From the NCBI RefSeq assembly GCF_000739655.1, contig NZ_BATR01000094.1, forward strand, positions 62,001-126,000: a stretch of DNA of 64,000 bases, given 5' to 3'. Under the pieces are notes generated by a model that did not search any database, was not told the origin of the DNA, and saw only the letters and a program-made list of their open reading frames with translations. The stretch comes from Verrucomicrobium sp. BvORR106. Lineage in GTDB: Bacteria > Verrucomicrobiota > Verrucomicrobiia > Verrucomicrobiales > Verrucomicrobiaceae. A program made the position numbers and the translations under genes. Shown here one piece after another: positions 13,458-14,953 of this stretch (position 1 is its first letter; each line of letters begins with the position of its first letter).

Positions 13458-13853
13458 TTATTGCACCGCAATGACGCGCGGTTTGGCGGCTTCTCTGACG
13501 GGAAGGTTCAAGGTAAGGACACCGTCTTCCAGCTTGGCGGTGAGCGCGGCCTCATCCACCTTGGCGGTGACCTTGAGCTGGAGCTTGTAGCTGGAGCTGC
13601 CAAGTTCCCGATGAAGGGACTTCCAGGAATCTTGGGCGACAGGTTTGCGCTGAGCGCTGAGGGTGAGGACGCCCTGATCAAGCTTGACCTGGACGCTGTC
13701 CTTGGCTGCGCCGGGAAGGTCCACTCGGACTTGGTAGGCGTCTTTGGCGCTGTCGACGGAGTAGCGCGGTTTCACGAAGTTCTGCGACTGCGCGGTCGTG
13801 TTTGTATTCGTAGTGTCGGTGGCGCAGGCGCTGGCAGGAGTGCAAGTGGTCAT
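13458..13853 (-). CDS. Small heat shock protein, Hsp20/alpha-crystallin family
   Basis: The 131-residue product has a Thr/Asn-rich N-terminal arm (about 25 residues) and an alpha-crystallin domain: YQVRVDLPGAAKDSVQVKLD, then GVLTLSAQRK, ending in LEDGVLTLNLPV and the C-terminal PRVIAVQ tail. These ATP-independent chaperones hold unfolding proteins. It follows a second hsp20 gene by 137 bases on the same strand, and the pair looks like a duplicated heat-shock unit ending in the strong terminator at 13361. Confidence 0.93.
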   Translation of the reverse strand: MTTCTPASACATDTTNTNTTAQSQNFVKPRYSVDSAKDAYQVRVDLPGAAKDSVQVKLDQGVLTLSAQRKPVAQDSWKSLHRELGSSSYKLQLKVTAKVDEAALTAKLEDGVLTLNLPVREAAKPRVIAVQ

Positions 13854-13990: not shown

Positions 13991-14413
13991 TCACTGAACC
14001 TCAATACTGCGAGGTTTGTGCGCTTCGGCTTTCGGCAGAGTGACCGTCAGAAGGCCGTCTTCCACTTTGGCTGCGATGGCATCGTATTTGACGCTGTCCG
14101 GCACAGAGACCGAGCGTGTGGAAGTGAAGCTGGATTCGCTTTCGCCATTCTTCTCCTTTCGCACGACGGTGACGGTGAGAAGACGGTCGTTGAACTCGAC
14201 CTTCACATCTTCCTTCTTCACGCCGGGAATTTCGAAGGTGGCGTAGTAGTTGTCCTTGTCCTCGTGGATGTCCGTGGCGAGGCGTCCGGTGGCTGCTCCG
14301 CCGAAGGCAGTGTCCCAATCGAACACGCGAGCGAAGGCGGGCAGGTTGCCAAACGGGTGATTGAGCCAGGCTTCGAGGCTGGAGGCAGGATGATTGTAGC
14401 GGGTAAGTTTCAT
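13991..14413 (-). CDS. Small heat shock protein, Hsp20/alpha-crystallin family
   Basis: The 140-residue product has a DIHEDKDNYYATFEIPGVKK segment that opens the alpha-crystallin domain, the DRLLTVTVVRK strand, VEDGLLTVTLPKAEAHKPRS and a short C-terminal tail with IEVQ. The ATG at 14413 begins MKLTRYNHP; residues from the longer frame upstream are not family-like. It is the first of two hsp20 genes on this strand. A 360-base spacer upstream carries two dyads (14578-14641) that may be its operator. Confidence 0.94.
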   Translation of the reverse strand: MKLTRYNHPASSLEAWLNHPFGNLPAFARVFDWDTAFGGAATGRLATDIHEDKDNYYATFEIPGVKKEDVKVEFNDRLLTVTVVRKEKNGESESSFTSTRSVSVPDSVKYDAIAAKVEDGLLTVTLPKAEAHKPRSIEVQ

Positions 14414-14577
14414 GGTGTTTGTTTTGTTGGACCTAAGAGTTGTCTTAGTAGGGTGATGTCTACGTGGCCTATTCCCGCAAGCCTCGTGCCATCGGCATCG
14501 TGATGGGTGTAAGACGTTGAAAATGAGGTGAAACGAGACCTGAGGCACTCCTTGGGAGCCTCGACCTGCTGTATGGA

Positions 14578-14641
14578 AAGAGACAAAAAGACTCTTAAGT
14601 GAAATTTTGCATCGCCCTTGTTAAGAGACAATATGACTCTA
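14578..14641. promoter_or_regulatory. Two dyads AAGAG-N9-CTCT, 45 bases apart, possible hsp20 operator
   Basis: Dyad 1: AAGAG (14578-14582), 9 bases, CTCTT (14592-14596). Dyad 2: AAGAG (14623-14627), 9 bases, CTCTA (14637-14641). The spacers also match (ACAAAAAGA and ACAATATGA). A related palindrome TAAGA-gttg-TCTTA lies at 14434-14447, close to the hsp20 start. Two copies four helical turns apart between divergent genes suggest a binding site for a regulator; the N9 spacer recalls CIRCE in layout only. Confidence 0.5.
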
Positions 14642-14773: not shown

Positions 14774-14953
14774 ATGAAACTCCTCCTGAAAATCGCCATC
14801 GTCGTGGTTGTAGCCCGCTTTATGGTTCACACGCCAAAGGGGGCAAATCAGACCCTGGATGCGGTGAATAGCTTCACGCTCCGTGACATGGCGATGCGGG
14901 TGGACAGTGTCTTTGTCTTTGTGGAAGAGACCGTGATGAGCTGGTTCTCCTAG
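14774..14953 (+). CDS. Small membrane protein of unknown function
   Basis: The 59-residue product begins with LLLKIAIVVVVARFMV, one membrane helix, then a polar part (TPKGANQTLDAVNSF) and a second mildly hydrophobic stretch, VDSVFVFVEETVMSWF. The ATG at 14774 is chosen because the residues from an earlier start are His/Asn/Cys-rich and unlike protein. It is transcribed away from hsp20 and shares the spacer with the two dyads. Without a homolog in mind this could be a false gene, but length and hydrophobicity favour a real one. Confidence 0.5.
   Translation: MKLLLKIAIVVVVARFMVHTPKGANQTLDAVNSFTLRDMAMRVDSVFVFVEETVMSWFS

Follow-up and report, generated by a model that had tools for sequence, protein, structure and literature searches.

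Paired dyads upstream of a Verrucomicrobium hsp20 pair as probable activator sites of a sigma-54 chaperone regulon

The window analysed here, a stretch of 64,000 nucleotides (bases 62001-126000 of contig 116) from the 8.69 Mb genome of Verrucomicrobium sp. BvORR106 (G000), carries on its minus strand a tandem pair of hsp20 genes, an arrangement that is also seen in relatives. The first gene of the pair, hsp20-A, is matched in 45 of 57 genomes at E<=0.001, with 93% identity in a second genome of the same genus (G001). Read toward hsp20-A on the minus strand, the upstream region presents in succession two dyads, an IHF-like site, a sigma-54 promoter element, a small leader hairpin and the ATG at 14413. 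The IHF consensus WATCARNNNNTTR was used for scoring, and the features of the locus are as follows:

13458..13853, minus strand: hsp20-B, second gene of the tandem pair (PF00011, E 2e-16)
13991..14413, minus strand: hsp20-A, first gene of the unit (PF00011, E 1.8e-17)
14433..14448, minus strand: small leader hairpin CTAAGA-CAAC-TCTTAG (CTAAGACAACTCTTAG), downstream of the promoter element
14477..14491, minus strand: sigma-54 -24/-12 promoter TGGCACGAGGCTTGC (TGGCAC-N5-TTGC), 78 bp before the hsp20 ATG
14510..14522, minus strand: IHF-like site TTTCAACGTCTTA, between dyads and promoter, with 8 of the 9 letters of WATCARNNNNTTR
14579..14595, unstranded: proximal dyad (UAS 2), putative activator site, 104 bp upstream of the sigma-54 site, 15.4 bits with the family matrix, conserved in the genus
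14624..14640, unstranded: distal dyad (UAS 1), putative activator site, 149 bp upstream of the sigma-54 site, 20.0 bits with the family matrix, conserved in the genus

The paired AAGAG-N9-CTCT dyads described in the initial annotation are indeed present (AAGAGACAAAAAGACTCTT at 14578-14596 and AAGAGACAATATGACTCT at 14623-14640), with 9-base spacers and starts 45 bases apart. The shorter palindrome that it placed near the hsp20 start exists as well; it is not related to the dyads, as had been supposed, and corresponds to the small hairpin of the leader. One T-A pair of this hairpin is replaced by C-G in G001 and G003, and a role as RNA thermometer was discarded on finding that its fold is no better than those of shuffled sequences (z -0.73). 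The promoter element at 14477-14491 follows the pattern TGGCAY-N5-NTGC at -24/-12.

The enrichment of AAGAG-N9-CTCTT before other heat-shock genes, put forward in the same annotation as the means of checking its reading, does not emerge with the exact string, which yields 325 matches with up to one mismatch in the G000 genome against 309 in a reversed control. The stricter AGAGWC-N5-GWCTCT is perfect only at the window promoter and, with up to one mismatch, gives 34 matches against 42 in the control. What does recur before hsp20, dnaK and clpB is a degenerate family motif, WGWGYCAWWWTGRCWCW. Within the window, the exact dyad pattern stands weakly above chance (3 matches on 2 sites; shuffle mean 0.41, with 2 of 100 shuffles reaching 3). 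The family-wide matrix, whose training set includes the two dyads of the window, exceeds 13 bits at these two places and nowhere else in the 64 kb, and a matrix seeded with the same two dyads and refined on 11 order-level promoters only recovers 6 sites above 12 bits in the three promoters of the genus (shuffle mean 0.04).

The exact AAGAG-N9-CTCTT matches listed for the G000 genome belong mostly to an unrelated dispersed hairpin. A GC-rich hairpin, AAGAGCCGGGACGGCTCTT, occurs in dozens of copies in this genome (L037-L051 and others) and looks like a REP-type repeat; a second hairpin, AGAACCGTCTCGGTTCTT, lies near its copies in some places. The dispersal of such hairpins, together with the location of the dyads in an intergenic region shared with an opposite gene (a small protein starting at 14774 on the plus strand), lends some ground to the idea that the dyads serve that gene or represent a chance or mobile repeat. 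The core of the dispersed repeat, however, is GC-rich, and the window does not contain its core string; the dyads, for their part, accompany hsp20 and its sigma-54 element in other families as well and appear again ahead of dnaK and clpB. We therefore regard this explanation as extremely improbable.

The comparison was extended to 44 hsp20 promoters, comprising 30 same-family loci and 14 further hsp20 loci, 11 of the latter from other families of the order Verrucomicrobiales; the set leaves aside five hsp20 genes with neither element (L092, two in L097, L098 and L103 10111), the second genes of tandem pairs and the duplicates L102, L104 and L105. The strict form TGGCAY-N5-NTGC is found in 37 of the 44. 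Scored with a matrix trained on these same 44 promoters, 31 present two dyads above 8 bits spaced 41-45 bp apart, 11 (seven of them from genus g8) have other site(s) only, and two (L019 and L022) lack any site above 8 bits. The proximal dyad falls between -92 and -96 in 22 of the 31 pairs; in the genus of the window both dyads sit about 11 bp further up, and in L100 about 22 bp nearer, the spacing being kept in both cases. Judged by eye, such whole-turn shifts are as expected if the face of the helix is important, L090 and L091, whose spacings fall outside whole-turn steps, being the exceptions.

Held-out scoring, with matrices seeded in each case with the two dyads of the window, gives a consistent picture. 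A matrix derived from 33 family promoters locates 19 sites above 8 bits in 10 of the 11 order-level promoters (shuffle mean 0.47), and the reverse exercise, with the order-level matrix, locates 52 sites in 27 of the 33 family promoters (shuffle mean 1.48). An IHF-like site with at least 8 of 9 letters lies between dyads and promoter in 32 of the 44 (shuffle mean 5.95, largest 13). In sigma-54 promoters, activator sites are usually found 80-200 bp upstream, and an intervening IHF site is common, if not obligatory. The pairing of the dyads in 31 promoters and the held-out signal give them the character of upstream activator sites, and the sequence matches in the 32 promoters likewise that of an intervening IHF site.

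These observations bear directly on the earlier suggestion that the dyads are the operator of a heat-shock repressor, which would here act on an ordinary promoter. Part of that suggestion survives, in that the dyads have a regulatory look, are conserved and are tied to chaperone genes, and a search of the open-licence literature gave no description of the regulator in this group. The kind of regulation proposed is another matter, as the position and context of the dyads are those of sigma-54 activator sites. Repressor operators can take the form of dyads of this size, and the single dyad found in the leaders of the kinase and regulator genes discussed below may well repress. Against a repressor operator stand the prevalence of the sigma-54 element in the promoters analysed and the lack of CIRCE in the G000 genome, which the initial annotation had correctly noted for this region: the strict 9+9 form, TTAGCACTC-N9-GAGTGCTAA, has no match there at up to 3 mismatches. 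Moreover, the dyads lie some 70-150 bp upstream of the sigma-54 element, too far for simple blocking to be likely. We thus deem the repressor explanation very unlikely, and infer from the arrangement of the sites that the dyads would mediate activation rather than repression.

A profile built from the sequence alone of 26 hsp20 promoters was used to search 57 genomes under stricter filters, at the cost of losing weak matches, and returned a match at E<=0.1 in 53 of them. By hand count, the 62 matches listed at E<=1e-5 comprise 35 before hsp20 (the 26 training promoters and nine new ones), 25 before dnaK and two before clpB; no other kind of gene figures among these 62. Fifty-nine non-hsp20 sites were read, namely all those listed at E<=1e-5 and a selection of weaker ones, leaving out the other weaker matches, those of G036 and G047, and L352. 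They divide into 42 dnaK sites, from 42 different genomes of the 57, six clpB sites (G007, G008, G014, G016, G028 and G050) and 11 others. No dyad above 9 bits is seen in 8 of the 11 others, nor in 6 of the 42 sites at dnaK and one of the six at clpB. In genus g8, the dyads or the -12 element are poor in several genomes, and TAG takes the place of the expected TGC at several dnaK promoters. The identity of the dnaK genes rests on an N-terminal motif present in 42 of 42 and on the NCBIfam cut-off, passed by all three scanned; among the six clpB genes, four pass the NCBIfam ClpB cut-off, one is cut by the end of its locus and falls just under it, and the sixth, a contig-end fragment, has no NCBIfam match.

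In the G000 genome, the dnaK promoter is within the profile matches and combines dyads of 14.7 and 10.0 bits with TGGCACAACTCGTGC, and a second hsp20 gene (contig 194) is preceded by a weak sigma-54 element and by two dyads, scoring 14.5 and 13.4 bits, at a spacing of 43 bp. The small-genome genus g12 has no match to the window hsp20, yet the promoter is found before dnaK in four of its genomes (G043, G049, G052 and G055). Control elements are thus shared by several chaperone genes, and the recurrence of the same promoter and dyad architecture at hsp20, dnaK and clpB, including the dnaK and second hsp20 of G000, points to a chaperone regulon.

Several further loci were noted along the way. A third hsp20 gene of G000 (L006, contig 42) is followed by an apparent lon, and no dyad above 9 bits is found in the upstream stretch that was read. 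Strong dyads without a good sigma-54 element lie before a ketosynthase-like gene (L351, G012:C49) and before a ROK-like gene (L255, G044:C75), and a strong, conserved sigma-54 element without dyads precedes an apparent ECF-type sigma factor gene (G000:C93:64775-64843 and G003:C1:3751806-3751865), the identities of these three genes being judged by eye. The strict sigma-54 pattern has 135 matches (58 + 77) in the G000 genome against 25 in the control, and among the first 30 of its strict-pattern loci scanned there is one dyad above 13 bits (L188).

A sigma-54 promoter with paired upstream sites calls attention to the activators encoded in these genomes. In G000 alone, the sigma-54 activator domain has nine strong matches (E<1e-37), and activators were typed in 16 genomes. 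One type, T070, was identified in all 16 (in G006 as a contig-edge fragment), and it is the only activator type found in every one of them; in G005 and G037, both of which keep the promoter, no other activator with a GAFTGA-type loop was found. The T070 gene of G000 (contig 166, ATG at 663) encodes a receiver, a GAFTGA-type AAA+ domain and a Fis-type HTH (PF00072, PF00158 and PF02954), the T070 proteins typed carry either a GSFTGA or a GAFTGA loop, and comparison with NCBIfam reached no named cut-off among the matches shown. Its distribution and domain content make this NtrC-type response regulator the best candidate for the activator acting on the dyads. No activator was found beside hsp20 in 20 regions, where the search returned three short alignments of low identity that were read as receiver-only similarity.

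The activator initially favoured was a different one, T068, a receiver-AAA+ regulator encoded between uppS and mfd (G000 contig 26) that would control the same sigma-54 chaperone regulon. Of 57 relatives, 47 have T068, and 51 are concordant for T068 and hsp20 (43 with both, eight with neither). It was rejected on the grounds that dnaK promoters are present in genomes lacking it. T068 was not found in seven of the 16 typed genomes, and five genomes without it both at E<=1e-100 and among the activators typed at E<=1e-30 (G005, G016, G037, G043 and G049, of which G005 and G016 are incomplete, at 90% and 86%) keep the promoter at hsp20 and/or dnaK. Furthermore, no dyad above 14.5 bits lies near T068 in the six regions read, the one match (L131 11830) being located elsewhere. 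Hence, T068 seems to us an unlikely activator of these promoters.

The T068 protein (L129 5246-6910) has an apparent Glu at the expected phospho-acceptor Asp of its receiver (DLVLSEARLP), and no kinase directly adjoins its gene; it is possibly phosphorylation-independent. The remaining activators were also set aside: the T075 family, in which the members read have no GAFTGA loop, and the RtcR-like, T067, T069, T071, T072, T073, T107 and T114 types, each absent from some typed genomes. A conserved NtrC-like family was observed at L075, L122, L123, L127, L128, L279, L280, L283 and L289, and its lack of a GAFTGA loop means that it is probably not a sigma-54 activator.

The case for T070 is completed by the genes that surround it. 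A PAS histidine kinase is encoded in all 57 genomes, and five of the seven regions retrieved around T070 have its gene ahead of T070; in the genus of the window, the two genes lie apart. Two of these kinases were scanned and showed PAS, HisKA and HATPase domains, and inspection by eye revealed no obvious membrane stretch in either, in keeping with a soluble, cytosolic enzyme. The seven T070 regions contain four matrix matches above 15 bits, every one of them in the kinase leader (one in G043, two in G037 and one in G056). Thirty kinase loci were collected, of which 26 were scored as family kinase leaders and four, in which no start was found, were looked at separately. Ten of the 26 leaders have a dyad above 10.5 bits, in each case with one near -55 to -83, and the other 16 have nothing above that score; seven exceed 13 bits, against a mean of 0.05 in shuffles that keep single-base content only. 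No good sigma-54 element was seen in the family kinase leaders. The kinase leader of G002, among those examined apart, has a site of 17.3 bits at -150, and no site above 9 bits occurs in those of G000, G001, G006 and G011. T070 stands apart from the kinase in G000 and G003, and there a dyad of 14.6 bits is located 34 bp ahead of T070 itself. The dyad thus tends to accompany the transcription unit of the regulator, residing in the kinase leader or, when the kinase is located elsewhere, in that of T070. A single leader dyad with no visible sigma-54 element suggests self-control of the kinase/T070 unit, and this putative self-site, though missing or weak in many genomes, constitutes the strongest reason for singling out T070.

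The promoter element, the dyads with their spacing and conservation, the same architecture at dnaK and clpB and, in some genomes, a dyad at the unit of the regulator can all be read directly from the DNA. With good confidence, we propose that the tandem hsp20 genes are transcribed from a sigma-54 promoter, that the two dyads form its upstream activator site, and that the whole belongs to a chaperone regulon governed by a T070-type activator. According to this proposal, T070 would bind both dyads as dimers, the intervening DNA would be bent, probably by IHF, and the T070 ATPase would open the closed complex of sigma-54 polymerase at TGGCAC-N5-TTGC. The same activator would also drive dnaK, in some genomes clpB and perhaps the second hsp20 of G000, hence the designation of the set as a chaperone regulon of the heat-shock type. 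Upstream of T070, the soluble PAS kinase would phosphorylate it upon protein unfolding, heat or misfolding being the presumed signal and the pairing of kinase and regulator a presumption too wherever their genes lie apart, as in the genus of the window. Self-control would then come from the single dyad in the leader of the kinase or of T070.

A broader reading can be entertained more tentatively, and we hold it with somewhat less than even confidence. The main cytosolic heat-shock response of the Verrucomicrobiales might consist of a dedicated two-component system working with sigma-54 and replacing HrcA/CIRCE, and perhaps sigma-32, with a kinase that would sense misfolding (e.g. through chaperone titration) and a T070 that would switch on hsp20, dnaK and clpB from paired sites, together with its own unit. 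Heat shock in bacteria is usually explained by sigma-32, HrcA/CIRCE, CtsR or HspR. Since no transcription starts from a sigma-54 promoter unless its activator is present, the rescue functions of dnaK and hsp20 would become an ATP-driven switch gated by a kinase. Most of the Verrucomicrobiales genomes searched show this architecture, which singles out one kinase and one regulator.

Taken by itself, the mechanism proposed is standard for the NtrC type. Activation in this class (NtrBC, ZraSR, PspF) involves a -24/-12 promoter, paired upstream sites and IHF. The Verrucomicrobiales promoters share with it the -24/-12 element, paired dyads some 70-150 bp upstream and an IHF-like site between the two, as well as an NtrC-family candidate activator, a putatively soluble PAS kinase and, in some genomes, a self-site at the regulator unit; they differ in having cytosolic chaperones (hsp20, dnaK and clpB) as targets and in the dyad itself. 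A dyad with a 9-base spacer near chaperone genes is also reminiscent of HrcA/CIRCE, from which the present system departs in sequence, in the distant upstream position of the sites, in its sigma-54 promoter and in the lack of CIRCE in the G000 genome. What is unusual, and appears to be new, is the placement of dnaK, hsp20 and clpB behind NtrC-type control in many members of an order, with a dyad and a two-component system of their own; a search of the open-licence literature found no report of a sigma-54 heat-shock regulon in Verrucomicrobiota. Chlamydia offers a parallel within the PVC group, with tandem sigma-66/sigma-54 promoters described at hrcA-grpE and a two-component system, CtcB/CtcC (AtoS/AtoC), for which atoS and atoC are reported to rise and rpoN to fall on heat shock (PMC7482065, PMC8762339). 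The likeness, a two-component system coupled to sigma-54, is one of description only, and as far as these accounts go CtcC has no DNA-binding domain and HrcA/CIRCE is in use, whereas T070 has a Fis HTH, dyads are present and no CIRCE was found here (PMC7482065, PMC8762339). For Planctomycetota and Bacteroidota, predicted sigma-54 promoters have also been reported to be enriched before chaperone COGs, IbpA, DnaK and GroEL among them (PMC12316311); with respect to chaperones, the portions of that work drawn on here mention those two phyla and not Verrucomicrobiota, and they give no activator or activator site. The regulon outlined in this analysis fits these earlier observations, in which sigma-54 has been linked to chaperone genes of Bacteroidota and of other members of the PVC group.
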